From positions 620,001-684,000 of the forward strand of contig NC_010681.1 of NCBI RefSeq assembly GCF_000020125.1: 64,000 nucleotides of DNA, given 5' to 3'. The notes under the pieces are model-generated. The model was not told where the DNA came from, ran no database searches, and saw nothing but the letters and a program-made list of their open reading frames with translations. The translations under genes were made by a program, and so were the position numbers. Positions 44,819 through 55,363 of the stretch are shown piece by piece (position 1 is the stretch's first letter; every line of letters starts with the position of its first letter). The DNA comes from Paraburkholderia phytofirmans PsJN (lineage in GTDB: Bacteria; Pseudomonadota; Gammaproteobacteria; Burkholderiales; Burkholderiaceae).

Positions 44819-44851
44819 AAAAAACCCCGCTTAACCAGCGGGGTTTTTTTA
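44819..44851 (+). terminator. Rho-independent terminator of ssb
   Basis: ACCCCGC-ttaacca-GCGGGGT stem-loop followed by six more T, 28 bases after the ssb stop. Confidence 0.92.
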
Positions 44852-44993: not shown

Positions 44994-45022
44994 TTGACAT
45001 TCAACCCTCCAAAGACAATACT
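44994..45022 (+). promoter_or_regulatory. Candidate sigma-70 promoter of the maoC-citE operon
   Basis: TTGACA (44994-44999), 17 spacer bases, AATACT (45017-45022). The -35 is perfect and the -10 matches four of six. The predicted start near 45029 touches the downstream palindrome. Confidence 0.6.
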
Positions 45023-45030
45023 CGAATCAC

Positions 45031-45048
45031 ACTTTGTACGGACAAAGT
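45031..45048 (+). promoter_or_regulatory. GntR/HutC-type operator palindrome
   Basis: ACTTTGT-acgg-ACAAAGT, a perfect inverted repeat with seven-base arms, eight bases after the -10 element and 39 before the maoC ATG. Its core TTGTACGGACAA resembles the TTGTATAGACAA-like sites of HutC-family (UTRA) repressors. A UTRA-domain GntR gene lies in the same operon, so autoregulation is the natural inference. Confidence 0.6.
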
Positions 45049-45086: not shown

Positions 45087-45587
45087 ATGGAGTCCGACGT
45101 CGCAGTCAAAAATCGCATTCGCGCCAGCTACGGCCGCTACCTCGAAGATTTTCAGGTGGGCGATATCTACGAGCACCGGCCCGGGCGCACGATTACCGAA
45201 GCCGACAACATCCACTTCTCGCTGCTGACGATGAATTTCCATCCAATGCATTGCGATGCCGCCTACGCTGCCAAAAGCGAGTTCGGCCGCCTGCTCGTCA
45301 ATAGCGGTCTGACGGTTGCCGTGGTGCTGGGTCTGTCGGTGAACGACGTCAGCGGCAAGGCGATCGCCAACCTGGGCTGGAAAGAGATTCGTCTGACCGG
45401 CCCGGTATTTTGCGGCGACACGATCTACGCGGAATCCGAAGTGCTCGAAAAGCGCGAATCGAAGTCGCGTCCGGGGCAGGGGATCGTCACCGTGCAAACA
45501 CGCGCTTTCAAGCAGGACGGCACGCCGATCATGGACTTCGTACGTAGCGCGCTGGTGCCGGCACGCGGGCACGGCGTCGGCGATTGA
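45087..45587 (+). CDS. MaoC-family enoyl-CoA hydratase (mesaconyl/itaconyl-CoA hydratase-like)
   Basis: 166-residue single hot-dog domain of the MaoC family. DFQVGDIYEHRPGRTITEAD, then the active-site loop TMNFHPMH at 48-55, FGRLLVNSGLT and KSRPGQGIVTVQTRA. The usual catalytic Asp-x5-His appears as Asn50...His55. The extended similarity to mesaconyl-CoA-type hydratases, together with the CaiB and CitE genes in the operon, suggests a branched C4/C5 dicarboxyl-CoA substrate. First gene of the operon, with AGGAGACAGGC before the ATG. Confidence 0.82.
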   Translation: MESDVAVKNRIRASYGRYLEDFQVGDIYEHRPGRTITEADNIHFSLLTMNFHPMHCDAAYAAKSEFGRLLVNSGLTVAVVLGLSVNDVSGKAIANLGWKEIRLTGPVFCGDTIYAESEVLEKRESKSRPGQGIVTVQTRAFKQDGTPIMDFVRSALVPARGHGVGD

Positions 45588-45789
45588 GCGACGCGTTGCC
45601 CGGCGAGAACCGCCGCATGTTCGGGGCGAACGCCCGTACAGCCTGAGCACGACAAGCAACACAAACAGCGCCCAGCTGCCACCAAGAGCAGCCTGCGCGC
45701 AGATTCCGGCGGCGTCCCAATCAGGCGTCGCGATGCGGCGAGCGCATAGGCAAATGTTGCGCAGCCGCATGCACACCAAGGAGACAAAG

Positions 45790-47175
45790 GTGGCTATCGG
45801 TATCGTCAACTCGGGCGCGCGACTCGATCGCCTGCCCATCGCGTCATTTCACTGGAAAATTCTCGGACTCATCAGCGCGGGCGCCTTTCTCGACGCCTTC
45901 GACATCTATCTCGCGGCCGGCGCGCTCGGCGCGATGGTGAAAGCGGGCTTCTCGGATCTGAAACTGAACGCGCTTTTCATCTCGGTGACCTTTCTCGGCA
46001 TGCTGATCGGCGCGGGCTTTGCCGGTTATCTCGGCGACCGCTTCGGCCGCCGTTCGTCGTATCAGACGAACCTGCTGATCTTTGGCGTTGCGTCGATTGC
46101 CGCGTGTTTCGTGCCGAACATGATGTGGCTGATCGTATTGCGGCTGATCATGGGCGTCGGCCTCGGCGCCGAACTGGTGGTCGCTGCCGGCACCTTGTGC
46201 GAATTCATCCCGCCCGCCTCTCGCGGACGCTGGACCGCGTTGCTCGCGCTCATCATCAATTCGGGCTTGCTGGTGTCGACGGCGGTGGGCTACGTCGTGA
46301 TTCCGCTTCTGGGCTGGCGCTATATGTTCGCGATCGCCGGCGTCGGCGCGATCATCGTGTGGGTGCTGCGGCACCGTATGCCGGAGTCGCCGCGCTGGCT
46401 CGAATCGGTCGGACGAAGCGAAGAAGCCGAGGCCACCGTCTCCGCCATCGAAAGCGAGGTGCAGCGTCAGAAAGGCCCGTTGCCGCCAGTCGAGCGCACC
46501 GAAAGTCTCGAAGTACCGAAAGCGCCGTTCTCCGCGTTGTTCTCGCACGCCATGCTCGGCCGCACGCTGGTCGCGATTCTCACCGCGGTCGCCGTGAATA
46601 TTTCGGTGTACGGCTTTGTCGCCTGGCTGCCGACCTTCTTCGTCAAGGAAGGCCTGACCATCGTGCAATCGCTCGGCTTCACGACGCTGATGGCGTTCGG
46701 CGCGCCGGGCGGCGCACTGGTCGGCTTCTTCTGCGCGGACCGCATCGGCCGGGCACGTGGTCTTGTGATCTTCGCGATCGCCACGATCGTGGTCGGCTTC
46801 ATCTATCCGAACATGCATGCGGGCTGGGCAATCAGCAGCGTCGGCTTCGTGTTGATCACCTGCATCTACACCGTCACGACGTTGGGCTTGTTCGCCTACA
46901 TCCCCGAACTCTTTCCGACTGAGCTGCGCTTGCGCGGCACCGGCACGGCCGGCGTATGTGGCCGCGCTGCCTCCATGAGCACGCCGTATCTGGCGGTGCT
47001 GCTCTACAGCTCGTTCGGCGTGTCCGGCGTGCTGGCCATGGTGAGCAGCGTCCTCGCGTTGCTGGTGTTCGGGATTCTGCTGCTGCGTGTGGAAACCAAC
47101 CAGCATGCGCTTGAACGGATCTCGCCGAGCCTCGACACCGACTCTGATTCGCTACCCGCTACCCAGCAAGGTTAA
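45790..47175 (+). CDS. MFS transporter (AAHS/metabolite:H+ symporter-like)
   Basis: 461 residues, 12 helices. LGLISAGAFLDAFDIYLAAGALGAM begins helix 1 with an acidic DxxD-like pattern of organic-acid symporters. Motif A is GYLGDRFGRRSSY, and PESPRWL marks the central loop. IPELFPTELRLRGTGTAG follows in the C-terminal half. I chose GTG at 45790 because AAGGAG lies six bases before it; earlier ATGs lack one. It is probably the uptake system for the acid degraded by this operon. Confidence 0.85.
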   Translation: MAIGIVNSGARLDRLPIASFHWKILGLISAGAFLDAFDIYLAAGALGAMVKAGFSDLKLNALFISVTFLGMLIGAGFAGYLGDRFGRRSSYQTNLLIFGVASIAACFVPNMMWLIVLRLIMGVGLGAELVVAAGTLCEFIPPASRGRWTALLALIINSGLLVSTAVGYVVIPLLGWRYMFAIAGVGAIIVWVLRHRMPESPRWLESVGRSEEAEATVSAIESEVQRQKGPLPPVERTESLEVPKAPFSALFSHAMLGRTLVAILTAVAVNISVYGFVAWLPTFFVKEGLTIVQSLGFTTLMAFGAPGGALVGFFCADRIGRARGLVIFAIATIVVGFIYPNMHAGWAISSVGFVLITCIYTVTTLGLFAYIPELFPTELRLRGTGTAGVCGRAASMSTPYLAVLLYSSFGVSGVLAMVSSVLALLVFGILLLRVETNQHALERISPSLDTDSDSLPATQQG

Positions 47176-47180
47176 AGCCC

Positions 47181-48593
47181 ATGACTTCACTCGATACCTC
47201 CGGCACCCTGTCCGACCAGTACGCACGCTTCGGCCTGGGCCTGCAATTGAGCGACGTACCGCGCGCGGTGCAGACGCGCGCGAAGCATCTGATTCTCGAC
47301 GCTGTCGGCATTGCATTCGCGTCGCGTGGTTACCCCTATGCGGATGTCTCGCTCGCTGCCTTCGCCGAGCTTGGCAGCGGCGCTTCACCGGTAATCGGCT
47401 ACGGCCGGCGGCTCGCCTTGCGCGATTCGGCGACGATGAACGGCGTGCTGATTCACGGTCTCGACTTCGACGACACGCATTCACGTGGCGTCATTCACTC
47501 GACCACCAGCGCATTGCCTTGCGTGCTCGCGCTCGCCGACCGCGACGGTCTGAGCGGCGCGGACTTGCTGGCCGCGTACATCGTTGCCATGGAAGTGTCG
47601 ACGCGCGTCGCATCGGCGGCGAAGGGCGGGTTTCACGACGCCGGATTTCATCCGACGGGTCTAGTCGGCGCGTTCGGCTGCGCGGTCGCGGCATCGCGTC
47701 TGCTGCAACTCGACGAGGCACGCGTGGCGCACGCACAAGGCATCGTTCTGTCGATGGCGGCCGGCAGCCTCGAATTCCTCGAAGACGGCGCGTGGACCAA
47801 GCGCGCTCATCCGGGTTTCGCGGCTGCCTCGGCGATCACCGCCGCGACGCTCGCGAAGCACGGTTTCACCGGCCCGCGTTTGGCCTACGAAGGACGCTTC
47901 GGTCTCTACGCCAGCCACCTCGGCAAGCCGCTCGACACAGCAGGCCGTGAACTCGCCACCGAAGGCCTCGGCAGCACGTGGCAAATCGACGAAGTCGCGA
48001 TCAAACCGCTACCGGCATGCCACTTCACGCATGCAGTCGCCGACGCGGCGATCGCACTCAATCGCGAACATCGCTTCTCGGCGAATTCGTTCGACTCGAT
48101 CAAACGCGTGGTCGCCAAAGTACCGCGCGGCACGGTCGAAATCGTGTGCGAACCGGTCGACGCAAAGCGCAAACCGGTCACGGCCTACGACGCGCAATTC
48201 AGCGTGCCGTACATCGTCGCGACGGCATTGCTCAAAGGCCGCTTCACGCTCGACGAACTCGAACCCGCCGCGCTCGCCGATCCCGCAGTGCTGGCGCTCG
48301 CCGCAAAAGTCGATTACGAAATCGACCCTGACACGACCTTCCCGCGTCACTACACCGGCGAAGTCGTGGTGGAACGCAGCGACGGTTCGCGCGTCGCGCA
48401 TCGCGAGGCGATCAATCGCGGCTGCGCGGACCGGCCCGTGAGCAACGACGACATCGTCGCCAAGTTCTACGCGAACGCGCAGCGCAGCGTCTCGCGCAGC
48501 GCCGCCGAACAGATCGCCCAAGCCGTATTGCAACTCGACGAGCAGCCGGCCCGCTCGCTCGCCGACACGCTTGCCGGACACACCGCATCCTAA
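47181..48593 (+). CDS. MmgE/PrpD family protein
   Basis: 470 residues of the MmgE/PrpD fold, the family of 2-methylcitrate dehydratase and cis-aconitate decarboxylase. The helical N-terminal domain includes ARFGLGLQLSDVPRAVQTRAKHLILDAVGIAFAS, HGLDFDDTHSRGVIHST and ATGFHPTGLVGAFG-like GFHDAGFHPTGLVGAFG. The C-terminal lid begins near KPLPACHFTHAVADAA. It starts five bases after the MFS stop. In the Pseudomonas itaconate cluster a PrpD-like gene is also present with no proven step. Confidence 0.85.
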   Translation: MTSLDTSGTLSDQYARFGLGLQLSDVPRAVQTRAKHLILDAVGIAFASRGYPYADVSLAAFAELGSGASPVIGYGRRLALRDSATMNGVLIHGLDFDDTHSRGVIHSTTSALPCVLALADRDGLSGADLLAAYIVAMEVSTRVASAAKGGFHDAGFHPTGLVGAFGCAVAASRLLQLDEARVAHAQGIVLSMAAGSLEFLEDGAWTKRAHPGFAAASAITAATLAKHGFTGPRLAYEGRFGLYASHLGKPLDTAGRELATEGLGSTWQIDEVAIKPLPACHFTHAVADAAIALNREHRFSANSFDSIKRVVAKVPRGTVEIVCEPVDAKRKPVTAYDAQFSVPYIVATALLKGRFTLDELEPAALADPAVLALAAKVDYEIDPDTTFPRHYTGEVVVERSDGSRVAHREAINRGCADRPVSNDDIVAKFYANAQRSVSRSAAEQIAQAVLQLDEQPARSLADTLAGHTAS

Positions 48594-48603
48594 GGACGTC
48601 ATC

Positions 48604-49767
48604 ATGACTGCAACAGAACTCGACACGCTGGAAAACGATCAACTGATTCTCGATATGCTGGACCGCTTTCTCGAAACCGAGGTGCGTCCCTACGTTCACA
48701 AGTTCGATCACGACGATATCTACCCGGCGGAGATCGTCGAGAAGATGAAGGAGATGGGGCTGTTCGGCTGCATCATCGATCCCGAGTATGGCGGGCTGGG
48801 TCTGTCGACGCGGACCTACGCGCAGATCATCGCGCGTATCTCGCGGGTGTGGATGTCGGTGAGCGGCATCATCAACTCGCATCTGATTCTCGCAATGCTG
48901 GTGCAACGCAACGGCACGCCCGAACAGAAGAGTAAATATCTGCCGAAGTTCGCCACCGGCGAATGGCGCGGCGGCATCGGCCTCACCGAGCCGGATTGCG
49001 GCACCGATCTGCAGGCGATCCGCACGACGGCCAAACGTGTCGGCGACGAATACATCGTAAACGGCAACAAGACGTGGATCACCAACAGCAAGCACGGCAA
49101 CACGCTGGCGCTGCTGGTGAAGACGGATACGACGGCGCAGCCGCGTCATCTTGGGATGAGTTTGTTGCTGGTGCAGAAAGGGCCCGGCTTCGAGGTCAGC
49201 CGGCAACTCGAAAAGCTCGGCTATAAAGGCATCGATACGTGCGAGTTGTCGTTCCACGATTATCACGTGTCCACCGATGCCTTGATTGGCGGCGTGGAAG
49301 GAAGGGGCCTGCAACAGATACTCGGCGGCCTCGAACTCGGCCGTATCAATGTCGCGGCGCGCGGCGTCGGTGTCGCGCAAGCCGCGCTCGATGAATCGGT
49401 GAGCTATTCGCAGCAGCGCAAAACCTTCGGCAAGCCGATCTGCGAACACCAGGCAATTCAGTTGAAGCTCGGCGAAATGGCGACGCGTGTCGAAGCAGGA
49501 CGTCTGCTCGTGGACGCCGCCGCGAAGAAGTACGACCGCGGCGAGCGCTGCGACATGGAAGCGGGCATGGCGAAATACTTCGCCACCGAGGCCGCGCTGG
49601 AAAACAGCGTCGAGGCCATGCGCATTCACGGCGCGTATGGTTATTCGAAGGAGTACAACGTCGAGCGCCTGTATCGCGACGCGCCGCTTCTTACGATCGG
49701 TGAAGGCACCAACGAGATGCAACGCATCATCATCGCCAAGCAGTTGATCGAACGGAGCCCGATATGA
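48604..49767 (+). CDS. Acyl-CoA dehydrogenase
   Basis: 387-residue FAD-dependent acyl-CoA dehydrogenase. The N-terminal helical part is LETEVRPYVHKFDHDDIYPAEIVEKMKEMGLFG. The FAD-binding GIGLTEPDCGTD and TWITNSKHGN follow. The C-terminal catalytic-base region is LLTIGEGTNEMQR with Glu in the usual position. AAGGACGTC precedes the ATG. Substrate is unknown; a methylsuccinyl-CoA-like or other branched acyl-CoA would fit the operon. The gene overlaps the CoA-transferase start by four bases. Confidence 0.9.
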   Translation: MTATELDTLENDQLILDMLDRFLETEVRPYVHKFDHDDIYPAEIVEKMKEMGLFGCIIDPEYGGLGLSTRTYAQIIARISRVWMSVSGIINSHLILAMLVQRNGTPEQKSKYLPKFATGEWRGGIGLTEPDCGTDLQAIRTTAKRVGDEYIVNGNKTWITNSKHGNTLALLVKTDTTAQPRHLGMSLLLVQKGPGFEVSRQLEKLGYKGIDTCELSFHDYHVSTDALIGGVEGRGLQQILGGLELGRINVAARGVGVAQAALDESVSYSQQRKTFGKPICEHQAIQLKLGEMATRVEAGRLLVDAAAKKYDRGERCDMEAGMAKYFATEAALENSVEAMRIHGAYGYSKEYNVERLYRDAPLLTIGEGTNEMQRIIIAKQLIERSPI

Positions 49768-50954
49768 GTCTGCCTCTTTCAGGTGTGCGCGTGCTCGCCA
49801 TCGAACAATACGGCGCCGGTCCTTTCGCCACTCAACATCTCGCGGACCTCGGCGCGGAGATCATCAAGATCGAGCATCCGAGCAATGGCGGCGACGTCGG
49901 CCGCGCGGTCGGCCCGTACTTCTTCGGCGAAGGCGATAGCCACTTCTTCGAAGCGTTCAATCGCAACAAATGCAGTCTCACACTCGACCTGAAGAAGCCC
50001 GAAGCGCGCGCAGTGCTGCTGGACCTCGTCGCGAAGAGCGACGCCGTGTTCAACAATCTGCGCGGCGATCTGCCGGCGAAACTCGGGCTCACTTACGCGC
50101 ACCTTTGCGAGGCGAATCCGAAGATCGTGTGCGGGCATCTGTCCGCTTATGGACGAACGGGCAGCCGCGCGGCATGGCCGGGCTACGACTATCTGATGCA
50201 AGCCGAGGCCGGCTATCTGTCGGTCACCGGCGAGCCTGACAGTCCGCCGGCGCGCTTCGGCCTGTCGATCATCGACCTGATGACCGGCACGACCGCGGCG
50301 ATGGCGCTGCTCGCCGGCCTCGTCGACGCGAAGACGTCGGGCAAAGGGCGTGACATCGACGTGAGTCTCTTCGACGTCGCGTTGCATAACCTCGCCTATG
50401 TCGCGACGTGGTATCTGAACGGCGGAGTGGTGACGGGGCGCGAGAACCGCTCGTCGCATCCGTCTCTCACGCCGAGCCAGTTGTACAAGACGCAGGACGG
50501 CTGGATCTTCCTGATGTGCAACAAGGAGAAGTTCTGGGGCGTGCTCGCCGAAGTGATCGACAAACCGTCGTGGGTGACCGATCCGCGCTTTTGCAACTTC
50601 CAGGCGCGTCTCGCGAATCGCGAGCTGGTGCAGACCGAGCTCGACGCAGCGCTCTCGACCGCCACCACGGCGCAATGGCTCGAACGCTTCGGCGGACGCG
50701 TGCCCGCTGCGCCGGTGTTCGACGTCAAGGAGGCGCTCGAGAATCCCTTCGTCGCCGAACGTGAATGCGTGGTGGACGCGGAGCATCCGCGCTTCGGCAA
50801 GGTGCGCGGCGTGGCCGCGCCGGTGCGGATCGACGAGCCGCTGCCGACGCGCGCCGCGCCGGATCTCGGGCAGGACACGCAGCGTCTGCTCGACGAACTG
50901 GGCTACGGCGCGGAAAGGATCGCTTTGCTGAGGGAGGCGGGTGTGGTGCAATAA
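49764..50954 (+). CDS. CaiB/BaiF family CoA-transferase (class III)
   Basis: 396-residue class III CoA-transferase. LPLSGVRVLAIEQYGAGPFATQHLADLGAEIIKIE is the N-terminal Rossmann part. The catalytic Asp171 lies in GLSIIDLMTGTTAAM, matching Asp169 of formyl-CoA transferase. The C-terminal GRVPAAPVFDVKEALENP closes the interlocked fold. It would activate the free acid using a CoA donor such as succinyl-CoA, corresponding to itaconate CoA-transferase (Ict) in Pseudomonas clusters. Translationally coupled to the dehydrogenase. Confidence 0.9.
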   Translation: MSLPLSGVRVLAIEQYGAGPFATQHLADLGAEIIKIEHPSNGGDVGRAVGPYFFGEGDSHFFEAFNRNKCSLTLDLKKPEARAVLLDLVAKSDAVFNNLRGDLPAKLGLTYAHLCEANPKIVCGHLSAYGRTGSRAAWPGYDYLMQAEAGYLSVTGEPDSPPARFGLSIIDLMTGTTAAMALLAGLVDAKTSGKGRDIDVSLFDVALHNLAYVATWYLNGGVVTGRENRSSHPSLTPSQLYKTQDGWIFLMCNKEKFWGVLAEVIDKPSWVTDPRFCNFQARLANRELVQTELDAALSTATTAQWLERFGGRVPAAPVFDVKEALENPFVAERECVVDAEHPRFGKVRGVAAPVRIDEPLPTRAAPDLGQDTQRLLDELGYGAERIALLREAGVVQ

Positions 50955-50999
50955 GGCCGGGCGGGCAACCGTCCGCTCTTTCACTTTTTGCACATCCAG

Positions 51000-51752
51000 A
51001 TGGCCACGACAGTCCTTGGGCAGCAGCCGCGCTACATGCAACTGGCACAGACGCTTCTGAACGAGATTCAGGGCGGGCAGTTTCCCATCGGCACGCTGCT
51101 GCCGACCGAGTTCGAGCTGTGCGAGCAGTTCGGCGCCAGTCGCTTCACGGTGCGGCAGGCGATCAAGCAGCTCGAGCAGCGCGGTCTGGTGGACCGGCGG
51201 CCCGGCATCGGCACCCGCGTGAAAGCCACGCAAAGCGAGACCGCGTACCGTCAGGTGATGGAGCGCCTGAGCGATCTGCACCGTTATACGACCGATACGG
51301 AGTTGGAGATCGCGTCGACGCAGACTGTCGAGATCGACGATCCGGACCTGATCGAGCGGCTCGGCGCAAAGCCGGGCGAAACCTGGCTGCTGGCCGAGGG
51401 CATTCGCCTGTCGCCGGAGAGTGTCGAACCGATTTGCCACACCGAGGTGTATATCCACCCCGCGTTTCGCTCGTTGACGGGCCTGAGCGGCCGGACGCAC
51501 GTGCCGATCTACACGATGATCGAAAAGCAGTTCGGCGAGCAGATCGCCGAGGTGCAGCAGGAAATCCGCGCGGTCGCGCTGCCGGCGAAGCTGGCGCAAC
51601 GTTTGAACGCGAAGCCGCGTTCGCCCGCGCTGTGGTTGTGCCGCCGCTATCTGAACCGGCGCGCGCAAGTGGTCGAGTTGACGATCAGCGTGCACCCGGC
51701 GGATCGCTACAGTTATTCCGAAACATTTCAACGCGACTGGCACGCGAATTAG
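51000..51752 (+). CDS. GntR-family regulator with UTRA domain (HutC subfamily)
   Basis: 250 residues. The N-terminal winged helix (about 10-75) has PIGTLLPTEFELCEQFGASRFTVRQAIKQLEQRGLVDRRPGIGTRV. The UTRA effector-binding domain follows from about 95 (AEGIRLSPESVEPICHTEVYIHP; SPALWLCRRYLNRRAQVVELTIS). It is the sixth gene of the operon and probably represses it from the palindrome at 45031-45048. The effector is likely the substrate acid or its CoA ester. Confidence 0.9.
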   Translation: MATTVLGQQPRYMQLAQTLLNEIQGGQFPIGTLLPTEFELCEQFGASRFTVRQAIKQLEQRGLVDRRPGIGTRVKATQSETAYRQVMERLSDLHRYTTDTELEIASTQTVEIDDPDLIERLGAKPGETWLLAEGIRLSPESVEPICHTEVYIHPAFRSLTGLSGRTHVPIYTMIEKQFGEQIAEVQQEIRAVALPAKLAQRLNAKPRSPALWLCRRYLNRRAQVVELTISVHPADRYSYSETFQRDWHAN

Positions 51753-51786
51753 CAATCTTGCGCCGCGTGCCGTTCAGGAGAACAAC

Positions 51787-52599
51787 ATGGACGCACGCAG
51801 CTATCTTTTCGTGCCGGGCGATCGCCCCGAGCGCTTCACCAAGGCGCTCGACACAAACGCGGACGCAGTGGTGATCGATCTCGAAGACGCGGTCGCGCCC
51901 GCGGCGAAACAAGCTGCGCGCGAGGGCCTGCAACGCTGGCTATCGGCGGCGGACGTTAGGCGGCTGATCGTCCGCGTGAATGCGGTGGGCACGCCGTGGC
52001 ATCTCGATGACGTGGACATGGTGAGCGCGTCCGGCCTTTCCACGATGATGCTGCCGAAGTCGGACAGCGCATGGCAACTCGCCGAGGTCGCCGCGCGGCT
52101 GCCATCGCAGATGCGAATCGTGGCGCTGATCGAAACCGTGGCGGGCGTAGTGGCGATGCGGGAGATTGCCGGTGCGCCGTCGGTCATGCGGCTCGCTTTC
52201 GGCACGGTGGATTTTTGCGGCGACGCCGGGATCGAAGGGCTCGGCGTCGAACTGGATTATGTGCGCTCGCAGATGGTGATCGAATCGCGCTATGCGGGTC
52301 TGCCCGCGCCGATCGACGGTGTGACACTGGAACTCGACGATCTCGCGCGTCTGACGGAGCATGTCGCCACCGCAAGGCGCTTCGGCTTCGGCGGCAAGCT
52401 GTGCATTCACCCACGACAGGTGGACCCGGTCAACGGCGGCTTTGCACCTAGCGAGAACGAGCGACGCTGGGCGTCGCGCGTTCTGGCGGCTTGCCGCGAG
52501 CACCCGGAAGGCGCGTTCGCGGTGGACGGCAAACTGGTCGACCGGCCGGTGATCGAACGGGCGCGGCGGATTGCGGAGTTCGATGCGCTCCTGCCCTGA
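51787..52599 (+). CDS. HpcH/HpaI aldolase - citrate lyase beta (CitE-like) protein
   Basis: 270-residue TIM-barrel lyase. RSYLFVPGDRPERFTKALDTNADAVVIDLEDAVAP is the family N-terminus. Metal ligands are expected at Glu116 (ALIETVAG) and within GTVDFCGDAG at 139-147. KLCIHPRQVDPVN follows. Single-domain CitE-like proteins cleave malyl-CoA or citramalyl-CoA. By operon logic this one is a citramalyl-CoA lyase candidate, giving acetyl-CoA and pyruvate. AGGAGAACAAC precedes the ATG. Confidence 0.9.
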   Translation: MDARSYLFVPGDRPERFTKALDTNADAVVIDLEDAVAPAAKQAAREGLQRWLSAADVRRLIVRVNAVGTPWHLDDVDMVSASGLSTMMLPKSDSAWQLAEVAARLPSQMRIVALIETVAGVVAMREIAGAPSVMRLAFGTVDFCGDAGIEGLGVELDYVRSQMVIESRYAGLPAPIDGVTLELDDLARLTEHVATARRFGFGGKLCIHPRQVDPVNGGFAPSENERRWASRVLAACREHPEGAFAVDGKLVDRPVIERARRIAEFDALLP

Positions 52600-52613: not shown

Positions 52614-53414
52614 TCACCGCCTCAAATGATCCAGCGCATCTCTCATCGGTGAACTGGAGATAACGATCGGCCCTGTAAACGGCGTATCCAGATCCACAAT
52701 CACATAGATGGCCGAAGCAATCGACACCGCGCCCAGCGAAATCGTGACCAGCGCCAGCGCATTGCGCGGCGCGATCAAGCCGAAACTCAGAAAGATCACG
52801 CCCAGCCAGAACGTCAATGTCGTGAGGAACGGTCGGGAAATGGAGCTGTGCGCTTCCTCGATGAGCTTCCATCGGGCATCCACGACGCGGCGGTATTGCT
52901 TCAGTGCATCGTCGAGCGCGCGCTGTTGTAGCGCGTCGCGCGTCCGCAACGTTCGCAACTCCTGGCCCACGGCAGTCAGCGTGTCGCCGAGCCGCACGCT
53001 CTCCAGTTTCTGCGAGTTGTCCGGCGATCCTATGTCTTTCGGATAGTCGCCAGTAGGCGGTGTTTCGGCAGGCCACGTCGATGCGATCGCCGCCGCGGTG
53101 TACTGGCGCAACAACTGCCGGGCCGGCCCGGTATCCGTGCCGTATTCGCGCAGGGTGGTGTCGAACTCGATCAGATCGGCGGCGTAGGTGCGCAAATCAT
53201 TCGACGAGGTGTCGAAGCTGGATTTCGCGGACGCGGTCATCAAGCCCAGCACCAGCGCGGCGAACGTCACCAGCATGCCGATCACCAGCTGGATCAGCTG
53301 CACTGTCTCGTGCGCCTTGTGCTCCTCGGGCAGAAGGGGGCGCACCCACACACCGATTCCGGTCACGGCGAGCAGCAGAACGAAAACCACCAGCGCCGAG
53401 TCTATTTCCGACAT
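52614..53414 (-). CDS. DUF4239 (bestrophin-like) membrane protein
   Basis: 266 residues with two N-terminal helices (ALVVFVLLLAVTGIGVWV and LVIGMLVTFAALVLGLMT), a ~120-residue soluble helical middle, and two C-terminal helices (FLTTLTFWLGVIFLSFGL and ALVTISLGAVSIASAIYVIVD). This is the DUF4239 layout, distantly related to bestrophin channels; function unknown. I chose the ATG at 53414, preceded by GGAG at seven bases. Convergent with the citE-like gene. Confidence 0.78.
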   Translation of the reverse strand: MSEIDSALVVFVLLLAVTGIGVWVRPLLPEEHKAHETVQLIQLVIGMLVTFAALVLGLMTASAKSSFDTSSNDLRTYAADLIEFDTTLREYGTDTGPARQLLRQYTAAAIASTWPAETPPTGDYPKDIGSPDNSQKLESVRLGDTLTAVGQELRTLRTRDALQQRALDDALKQYRRVVDARWKLIEEAHSSISRPFLTTLTFWLGVIFLSFGLIAPRNALALVTISLGAVSIASAIYVIVDLDTPFTGPIVISSSPMRDALDHLRR

Positions 53415-53713
53415 CGCCATGCTCCGTAGACACATTCCCGCCACTTTCCATCAAGCGCCGCTCGCCGAGAACCCGGGTAGTCCCGCAACGTCCAGCGCGA
53501 ATCGTCCTTCATATGCGCCTGTATGTTGATGTATCGCAAGCCCATACGCCATCCACCATAAAGTTTTTTGTGATTGAGCCGTAGTCCTTATATGTGGCGT
53601 TCGCTTAAATTTAGACAAGAGTTGCGGACCTGGCCTACTCGGCTTGGGCGCAGCACGCGTGGCCGAGGCATCTACTGAACATTCGGTCAGGCAGCCCAAC
53701 GGAGACAAGCCCG

Positions 53714-55363
53714 ATGTTGAAAAATCTGTCGATTCGCACCTGCCTCACCCTGATGATCGTGTTCTTCGGCGTCGTGCTGCTGTTCGGCGCCGCCGCCGGC
53801 TTGCTGTCGCTGCGCTCGAGCAATGCCTCGCTGCGGCAGATGTACACCGTCGATACGCCGGCCGTCGCCGACCTGGAAGGCAGCGCCGGGCAGTTGCTGC
53901 GCCTGCGTCTCGCACTGGCGACGTACGCATCGCTCGTCGACCTGAACGATCAGGACGGCGCGAATGCCGTGCTCAAGCGTTTTGATCAGTACCAGAAAGC
54001 TTCCAACGACCGTCTTGCCCACTATGTGAGCCGTGCGAGCACGGACGCCGATGAACAGCGCCTGATCAAGGATATGCAGGACAAGCGTGACACCTTCCTG
54101 CGCGAAGGCGTCGAGCCGGCTCTCGCCGCGCTCAAGGCGGGCGACAAGACGGCGTTCCAGCAAGTGCAGGCACACAAGCTGCCGTCGCTCTACAGCGCGT
54201 ACGAAAAGGCGATGCTCACGCTCGAACAGTTGCAACTCGATCACGGCGCGCAGCGCTACCAGGACGCGCAGGATCTGTTCTATGCGATCTGTATCGCGGT
54301 GGCGATCGGCATGGTCGCGTCGCTGCTGGGTTCGTGGATCGGCCGCGCGGTGCTGGTGCGTGCCATTGTCCGCCCGGTCGATGCCACCATCGCGCAGTTT
54401 CAGCGCATCGCCAACGGCGACCTGACCGGCCAGATCGTCGTGTCCAGTAACAACGAAATGGGCCGTCTCGCGGCCGCGCTGCGCAAGATGCAGGAATCGC
54501 TGATCGCGACGGTGAACTCGGTGCGTCAAGGCACGGAATCTATCGACACCGGAGTGAGCGAGATTGCCGCGGGCAACACCGATCTGTCGCAACGTACCGA
54601 GGAACAGGCCGCGTCGCTCGAAGAAACGGCGGCGAGCATCGAACAGCTCACCTCGACGGTCAAGCAGACGGCGGACAACGCGAAGCAGGCGAGTTCGCTT
54701 GCGCAGGGCGCATCCACGCTGGCCGCGCAAGGCGGTGATCTGACGGAGCAGGTGGTGGGCACGATGCATGGCATCGTCGACGATTCGCGGCGGATTGCCG
54801 ACATTGTCGGTGTGATCGAAGGGATCGCGTTTCAGACCAATATTCTGGCGCTGAACGCGGCCGTTGAGGCTGCGCGCGCCGGCGAGCAGGGACGCGGCTT
54901 CGCGGTGGTGGCGAGCGAGGTGCGCTCGCTCGCGCAGCGTAGCGCGGCGGCAGCGAAGGAAATCAAAGGCTTGATCGACGAATCGACGGCTCGCGTGCAG
55001 GCCGGCTCGCAACTCGTTCAGCGCTCCGGCTCGACGATGACCGAGATCGTCAACGCGATTGCGCGCGTGAGTTCGATTATGGGCGAGATCGCCGCGGCCG
55101 CGCTCGAGCAGAGTACCGGCATCGATCAGGTCAATCTCGCGGTCGCGCAGATGGACGAGGTGACGCAGCAGAATGCCGCGCTGGTGGAACAGGCTGCGGC
55201 TGCCGCGAGTTCGCTGGAAGAGCAGGCGCGGCGATTGACGTCGGCTGTATCGGTGTTTCGGACCGGGGGCGGTGCGGCGTCTGGGGCTTCGTTTGCCGGG
55301 CGGCGCGACGGTTCGGCTGCTACGCCGAAGACGGCCGCTGCAGGCGAGTTCGCGACGGTTTAG
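53714..55363 (+). CDS. Methyl-accepting chemotaxis protein
   Basis: 549-residue chemoreceptor. Helix TM1 lies at about 12-32, a ~150-residue periplasmic four-helix sensor follows, and TM2 is near 193-215 ([21 protein letters not shown]). HAMP begins near [20 protein letters not shown]. The cytoplasmic methylation/signalling bundle has the hairpin tip [48 protein letters not shown]. The Ala/Gly-rich tail ends GEFATV with no CheR-binding pentapeptide. Ligand unknown. Confidence 0.93.

Follow-up and report, generated by a model that had tools for sequence, protein, structure and literature searches.

A conserved seven-gene operon of Paraburkholderia phytofirmans PsJN, possibly encoding a third kind of route for the breakdown of branched C5 dicarboxylates

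Gene content, operator and conservation of the operon

We analyzed a 64,000-nucleotide stretch of Paraburkholderia phytofirmans PsJN (G000:C3:620001-684000, hereafter the window; the genome is 8.2 Mb in three contigs) and in it a seven-gene operon on the + strand (45087-52599), which an initial annotation had assigned to the degradation of itaconate/mesaconate-type dicarboxylates. All seven genes named there were found at these coordinates, and the enzyme types hold, as every protein exceeds the curated Pfam cut-off (Table 1). The gene order from 5' to 3' is maoC, mfs, mmgE/prpD, acyl-coenzyme A (CoA) dehydrogenase, caiB, gntR/UTRA and citE. A gap of 145 bases separates maoC from mfs and the rest of the operon is tightly packed (5 bases between mfs and mmgE, 10 between mmgE and the dehydrogenase gene, an overlap of 4 between the latter and caiB, 33 between caiB and gntR, and 34 between gntR and citE). 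The nearest relatives of the operon proteins come from Paraburkholderia. Judging from its sequence, the upstream hairpin is likely a terminator that sets ssb apart from the operon.

Table 1. Features of the operon and its upstream region (window positions; aa, amino acids).
Feature	Position	Strand	Evidence or remark
Terminator-like hairpin of ssb, G+C-rich, followed by a T run	44825..44843	+	Read directly in the sequence; absent from terminator-scan output
Sigma-70-like promoter, TTGACA-17 nt-AATACT	44994..45022	+	10/12 matches
Palindromic operator ACTTTGTACGGACAAAGT, proposed GntR/UTRA repressor site	45031..45048	.	Genome uniqueness and conservation
MaoC-type single hot-dog hydratase, 166 aa	45087..45587	+	Pfam MaoC 81 bits; closest NCBIfam model RipB/Ich
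MFS permease, 480 aa as called; later start (e.g. 45769) possible	45733..47175	+	Pfam MFS 137 bits
MmgE/PrpD family protein, 470 aa, proposed epimerase/isomerase of a free dicarboxylate	47181..48593	+	MmgE_PrpD_N/C 207/137 bits
Acyl-CoA dehydrogenase, 387 aa; open reading frame opens at TTG 48571	48604..49767	+	Dehydrogenase domains 173/105/82 bits
Class III (CaiB/BaiF) CoA-transferase, 396 aa	49764..50954	+	CoA_transf_3 382 bits
GntR/UTRA (HutC-like) transcription regulator, 254 aa	50988..51752	+	GntR 66 and UTRA 61 bits
CitE-like lyase, 270 aa, proposed citramalyl-CoA lyase	51787..52599	+	HpcH_HpaI 127 bits

This gene set represents a distinct, conserved operon type that occurs in Burkholderiaceae, Bordetella, Pseudomonas, Azospirillum and roseobacters. 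A search of GTDB genomes with a MaoC profile (A1, built from four proteins) gave at least 563 confirmed relatives, the best 80 of which were kept as loci; several loci are one genome fetched twice (e.g. L040 and L197), so that locus counts are not independent. The full set of MaoC, MmgE, dehydrogenase, CaiB, GntR and CitE is present in 32 of these best 80, including loci of Paraburkholderia, Caballeronia, Bordetella, Stutzerimonas, Pseudomonas syringae, Novosphingobium, Azospirillum, Frigidibacter and Roseovarius. A related MFS permease is also present in 17 of the 32, and by eye TRAP- or TTT-type transporter genes lie close to the set in several of the other 15; TRAP transporters are annotated in the relatives L024 (Azospirillum) and L025 (Pseudosulfitobacter). 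Among 20 Burkholderiaceae stretches, 17 (L191-L207) contain the operon and 16 of the 17 the full set (L207 reaches a contig end), while the operon is missing from the remaining three (L208-L210; MaoC identity 56-72%), which are excluded from the 17-stretch count. Because the full set recurs in 32/80 and 16/17 loci, we consider this gene combination more than chance. The core of MaoC, dehydrogenase and CaiB is found in 55 of the best 80 loci; a CitE match is missing in 23 of the 55, partly through contig ends, and some CitE-less core loci hold LeuC-like, LeuD-like or PrpB-like genes instead.

The palindrome upstream of maoC is the only site in the genome with at most two mismatches (reversed control: 0). 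At the same threshold it lies upstream of maoC in all 34 loci of the operon type (L023, L031-L046, L191-L207), and weaker versions (3-4 mismatches) are seen near maoC in Variovorax, Bordetella, Stutzerimonas, Azospirillum and some others; many distant loci have no palindrome near maoC. The regulator has GntR and UTRA domains, and the conserved palindrome lies 3' of the -10 element. From its uniqueness and conservation, the palindrome probably serves as the binding site of this regulator, which would then have the operon as its only strong target in the PsJN genome. Two promoter-like sites were found in the upstream region as compared to 1.9 in shuffled sequences, and the promoter in Table 1 therefore owes its support chiefly to its location immediately ahead of the operator.

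The itaconate/methylsuccinate cluster elsewhere in the genome

Using Pfam families to search the PsJN genome, we were able to identify a second CitE-MmgE-CaiB group on contig C1 (locus L026), which encodes on a single strand a 282-aa hydratase, an acyl-CoA dehydrogenase, CaiB, MmgE, CitE and an MFS permease (a LysR-type regulator adjoins it, seen by eye only). As anchor for L026 we used cluster L229 in a P. aeruginosa-like genome (G742), reached via the lyase of PDB 8khl (95% match), which by its molecule name we take to be P. aeruginosa PA0883. The L026 proteins share 79% (dehydrogenase), 72% (CaiB), 61% (MmgE), 50% (Ich) and 41% (Ccl) identity with this cluster, as compared to 33%, 32% and 32% for the dehydrogenase, CaiB and MmgE of the window and 42% for its CitE; the window hydratase has no match. 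Identities between the window and L026 are 72% (MFS), 48% (CitE), 33% (CaiB), 31% (MmgE) and 31% (dehydrogenase), and BLAST gave no match of the window MaoC to the Ich of L026 (E 1e-8) or L229 (E 1e-4). By these comparisons the orthologue of the P. aeruginosa ich-mcd-ict-mmgE-ccl operon is L026, not the window operon, and the enzymes of the window are either paralogous to those of L026 or not homologous to them.

The published work on the known cluster (PMC12290011 and PMC9875883, both used here from excerpts) identifies its MmgE protein as methylsuccinate isomerase and its dehydrogenase (Mcd) as methylsuccinyl-C4-CoA dehydrogenase (PMC12290011). Deletions in P. putida showed that efficient growth on itaconate requires ich, ict and ccl, and that methylsuccinate is added to the range by PA0879 and PA0881 (PMC9875883). 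In both papers the genes that handle methylsuccinate are the MmgE and acyl-CoA dehydrogenase genes of the P. aeruginosa cluster. Bxe_B2582 of Pa. xenovorans is among the isomerases assayed (PMC12290011). The protein of Pa. xenovorans LB400 closest to the window MmgE is P0003 (92% identity). Its contig is presumably chromosome 1 and Bxe_B2582, by its locus tag, presumably lies on chromosome 2; P0003 is thus probably a different protein from the assayed one.

MaoC at 75% identity or more is found in 22 of 249 Burkholderiaceae genomes. An Mcd-like dehydrogenase (E at most 1e-150) is found in 15 of these 22 as compared to 90 of the other 227 (Fisher p 0.012, kinship ignored); this is a single dehydrogenase match per genome and not proof of a full known-type cluster. 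Seven of the 22 have no Mcd-like match, some of them being fragmented assemblies.

Relationships and active sites of the operon proteins

The hydratase has RipB/Ich as its top NCBIfam match (212 bits, 4.7e-63, below the cut-off of 340) and mesaconyl-CoA hydratase as its top Pfam family. Its MaoC motif is Asn-x-His-Pro-x-His-x-Asp, with the Asn kept in 102/102 relatives; the Asn, second His and Asp are common to domain 2 of the mesaconyl-CoA hydratase 8hgn, and R-hydratase-like 1q6w and PaaZ have Asp in place of this Asn.

Class III CoA-transferases use an Asp as catalytic residue, and acyl-CoA dehydrogenases a Glu. The dehydrogenase Glu is kept in 86/86 relatives; an Arg like that of glutaryl-CoA dehydrogenase was also considered and was dropped, being present in only 17 of the 86. 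The transferase matches CoA_transf_3 (class III) as its sole Pfam family, and the candidate catalytic Asp is present in 73/73 relatives. In the CaiB tree, which took in seven of the genome's other CaiB-type proteins (18 places are listed in the genome), the window-type proteins form their own clade (support 100/100), adjoining Ict and outside it (87/88, midpoint root). The only CaiB-type protein found by blastp in the 17-kb stretch of L025 belongs to the Ict-sister group (100/99); its position beside a window-type cluster suggests that the substrates are exchangeable.

The lyase scores 173 bits with the RipC/Ccl model (cut-off 375) and 144 bits with citrate lyase beta (below cut-off); among structures it matches P. 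aeruginosa 8khl (181 bits) and PDB 3qll, presumably a Yersinia lyase (125 bits). Its metal-site Asp, Arg and His are present in 52/52 relatives and the C-terminal Asp pair in 49/52 and 46/52. Window-type, Burkholderial and Pseudomonas Ccl lyases group together (76/95, not starred), apart from the CitE of Mycobacterium tuberculosis and an Azospirillum group. The first lyase tree was built without three own-genome aldolase-like proteins intended as outgroup, and the second without the CitE rows L049 and L056 (long branches) and L230 (thinning). In the comparison with Ict, Ich and Ccl, which the initial annotation had put forward as a check, the lyase groups with Ccl proteins in an unsettled inner order, CaiB lies outside the Ict clade and the hydratase does not match Ich. 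For the permease, the known-type proteins (n=4) nest within the window-type ones (93/93), the permease of L026 belonging to the same clade as that of the window, and monophyly of the window-type permeases was rejected by the approximately unbiased (AU) test (p-AU 0.031; the group was chosen after the tree was seen, and the MFS outgroup L022 was dropped). Because the four form one clade in one genus, the nesting counts as one event. The permease lineage, and probably that of the lyase too, is common to the window operon and the known cluster; the hydratase, dehydrogenase, transferase and MmgE are the operon's own.

The residues of the MmgE isomerase in P. aeruginosa numbering are His88, Glu91, His102, Tyr148, His152, Lys202 and Lys266, of which Tyr148 is the proposed second base, paired with His102 (PMC12290011, excerpts). 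All seven are kept in 10/10 known-type proteins. In the window-type set (59 proteins at least 45% identical to that of the window, which is not itself counted), His88, His102, His152, Lys202 and Lys266 are kept with Asp for Glu91 in 59/59; the carboxylate-binding positions are thus retained, a point in favor of the C5-dicarboxylate reading. The His just ahead of the Tyr148 position is also kept in both types. Window-type MmgE proteins form their own clade (100/99), and five distant ones, from clusters with window-type MaoC, dehydrogenase and CaiB, join the known isomerases (82/73); of 15 such distant MmgE proteins, 14 have Tyr148, and both observations speak for the C5 acids. The PrpD equivalog models score far below their cut-offs (TIGR02330, 31 of 458 bits; NF042438, 48 of 950), and among solved structures cis-aconitate decarboxylase comes closest (144 bits).

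Several related clusters and neighboring genes were recorded as well. In mostly alphaproteobacterial loci (L090, L094, L098, L108 and L061) the same MaoC and dehydrogenase occur with an MmgE about 35% identical to that of the window. Window-type CaiB is found in L090, L098, L108 and L061 (the L094 contig ends before it), a LeuC-like gene in L061, L090, L098 and L108, a LeuD-like gene in L090 and L108, and a PrpB-like lyase with a 2-hydroxyacid dehydrogenase-like gene in L090, L094 and L108; these clusters possibly represent a related pathway ending in a free-acid lyase. In L025 (11287-17386; Pseudosulfitobacter, on a plasmid typed as conjugative) the genes after the window-type cluster encode a methyltransferase, an acyl-CoA mutase of the cobalamin-dependent kind, and MeaB. 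Plasmids of Cupriavidus (L021:7971-9380) and Paraburkholderia (L022:7647-9353) encode MmgE proteins 42-44% identical to that of the window, which by sequence are another uncharacterized branch; their 17-kb stretches gave no BLAST match to the hydratase or dehydrogenase of the window or of the known cluster. Small contigs labelled Phormidium willei (L081) and Opitutus (L048) carry clusters close to proteobacterial ones, for which contamination or binning error seems likelier than transfer. Two genes noted by eye follow the window operon: one, small, resembles membrane-protein genes (52614-53444, - strand) and the other is methyl-accepting chemotaxis-like (53714-55363). Membrane-protein-like and methyl-accepting chemotaxis-like genes also lie 3' of the operon in L031, L032, L191 and L193, and a chemoreceptor gene lies near it in Caballeronia (L023); the chemoreceptor-like gene of the window may sense the same acid as the operon. 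No class I fumarase was noticed by eye among the window open reading frames beside the operon (no search was made elsewhere).

Proposed pathway and comparison with known systems

We put slightly better than even chances on the operon being a separately assembled third pathway type whose substrates are branched C5 dicarboxylates, chiefly methylsuccinate and perhaps also itaconate or mesaconate (only two itaconate pathway types are described in the excerpts of PMC12290011). The reactions, substrate and inducer that follow are predictions from sequence. The MFS permease would import the acid, the MmgE/PrpD protein would interconvert stereoisomers of the free acid, and the class III CoA-transferase would load CoA onto it, probably from succinyl-CoA. 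The acyl-CoA dehydrogenase would then oxidize the saturated CoA ester, giving a mesaconyl-type CoA that the RipB-like MaoC enzyme would hydrate to citramalyl-CoA; the CitE-like enzyme would cleave the latter into acetyl-CoA and pyruvate. The GntR/UTRA protein would repress the operon at the palindrome, with one of the acids or CoA esters of the pathway releasing repression. The operon probably has the same kind of function as the known cluster, and its acid would be identical or closely related to that of the known cluster. Of the assignment in the initial annotation, a branched dicarboxylate remains likely and the chemistry plausible, but direct transfer of function from the P. aeruginosa cluster is unjustified because the window MmgE fails the isomerase signature. 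We found no paper describing or testing this cluster type in the literature searched, the coverage of which leaves out most subscription journals.

A number of observations weigh against the proposed pathway. Tyr148 is absent from 59/59 window-type MmgE proteins (Gln in 30, Lys in 14, Asn in 6, Ala in 3, and Asp, His and Arg in 2 each); the IDS epimerase has Tyr in the same column. Further positions differ between 60/60 window-type and 10/10 known-type proteins (e.g. His281 for Arg, Cys323 for Gly and Lys329 for Val, window numbering). The published methylsuccinate-isomerase profile has a cut-off of 550, with validated members above 750 (PMC12290011, excerpts). With a profile that we rebuilt from 43 known-type sequences, distinct from the published one, the window MmgE scores 186 bits and its 59 relatives 154-204, as compared to 774, 775 and 939 for three known-type proteins (themselves seeds); 15 distant relatives, mostly Tyr-bearing, reach 88-280. 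The window score is close to the 176 bits of an unrelated paralogue from the same genome (a second paralogue gives 133, and the two proteins of solved structure, IDS epimerase and cis-aconitate decarboxylase, give 123 and 104). Identity of the dehydrogenase to Mcd is no more than 31-33%, and Mcd has Pro in the column of the window-type catalytic Glu (11/11, and 4/4 Pseudomonas rows), although an alignment at about 31% identity may err there. The RipB and RipC scores are both below cut-off, the join of CaiB with Ict involves long branches, and two 3-oxoacid CoA-transferase subunits are encoded in L025 as well, at a distance of about 4 kb from its operon. The inner order of the lyase group is not settled (p-AU 0.073 and 0.447), and the permease case rests on 4 of 11 known-type loci in one clade and one genus. 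Genomes with the operon also carry an Mcd-like gene more often than the others do, which would be odd if the two had identical jobs.

Some of these points fit an operon that degrades a different 2-substituted succinate, either another stereoisomer or an acid larger than methylsuccinate, a reading we regard as distinctly weaker but serious. The changed MmgE pocket and the loss of Tyr148 speak for it, and the same chemistry would then yield a 2-oxo acid and an acyl-CoA and explain why the operon is retained beside the known cluster and often with an Mcd-like gene. The predicted isomerase pocket could take larger C3-modified substrates (PMC12290011, excerpts). The separate regulator and operator agree as well, since none of the 11 known-type loci has the palindrome at up to three mismatches; an operator common to both clusters was rejected on this ground. 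The permease speaks for the C5 acids instead, being closely related to that of the known cluster in PsJN, as do the grouping of the lyase with Ccl and the closeness of the hydratase to itaconyl/mesaconyl-CoA hydratase models. More speculatively, this could be a convergent third pathway in which MmgE is a new, Tyr-less isomerase acting on a 2-substituted succinate other than methylsuccinate, with the clusters dividing a family of environmental acids between them; we hold this to be possible rather than probable.

Another CoA-dependent dicarboxylate route, e.g. one for acids resembling tricarboxylates or aconitate in which a citryl-type CoA would be the substrate of CitE, seems unlikely to us. 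It would account for the match of the lyase to citrate lyase beta, for the LeuCD-like and PrpB-like genes in some distant relatives with the MaoC-dehydrogenase-CaiB core, and for the cis-aconitate decarboxylase structure nearest to MmgE, but the RipC/Ccl model scores higher, the lyase groups with Ccl, and the PrpD models are weak. Least probable is the reading of the initial annotation, by which the operon would simply be the known itaconate/methylsuccinate cluster in which another permease and another regulator have come in. The annotation was right that PA0878-0883 has the same enzyme classes, including MmgE and an acyl-CoA dehydrogenase; the idea was rejected once the orthologous cluster L026 turned up in the same genome, and the 31-33% identities, the hydratase without BLAST similarity and the results of the isomerase profile and residue tests all speak against it.

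A third pathway type would matter in several ways. Branched dicarboxylates such as itaconate and methylsuccinate connect soil fungi, gut bacteria, macrophage defence and bio-plastics (PMC12290011 and PMC9875883, excerpts), many bacteria carry this operon type, and copying function from the P. aeruginosa cluster would misread it. The window MmgE is a test case of whether the MmgE/PrpD fold can isomerize without the proposed second base, and an operator with one site makes a simple sensor test feasible.

Like the itaconate-methylsuccinate cluster of P. aeruginosa, C. necator and Pa. xenovorans, the operon brings together a CaiB transferase, an acyl-CoA dehydrogenase, an MmgE/PrpD protein, a hydratase and a CitE lyase, and a related permease is found in 4 of 11 Burkholderiaceae copies examined. 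It differs in its hydratase (a 166-aa single hot-dog protein vs 282 aa, with no BLAST similarity), in the absence of Tyr148 from MmgE, in a dehydrogenase with the catalytic Glu at another position, in the low identity (31-33%) of three enzymes, and in a GntR regulator with its own operator. The Yersinia-type rip cluster (known here via NF038241/NF038242 and excerpts of PMC12290011) provides the best NCBIfam matches of the hydratase and lyase. These reach only 212 of 340 and 173 of 375 bits. The models are narrow, however: the Ccl of the known cluster, at 163 bits, likewise falls short of the cut-off, and the Ich of that cluster has no model match. The window further differs from rip in having a dehydrogenase, MmgE and a class III CoA-transferase, RipA being, we assume, of another class. 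The window hydratase shares the Asn/His/Asp positions of mesaconyl-CoA hydratase 8hgn but is half its length, and CaiB scores 214 bits with the Haloarcula-type succinyl-CoA:mesaconate CoA-transferase model NF041294, far below the cut-off of 700. For the dehydrogenase the nearest solved relative is FadE3 (4iv6; 442 bits, runner-up 277), and the operon chemistry may hint at the substrate of FadE3.

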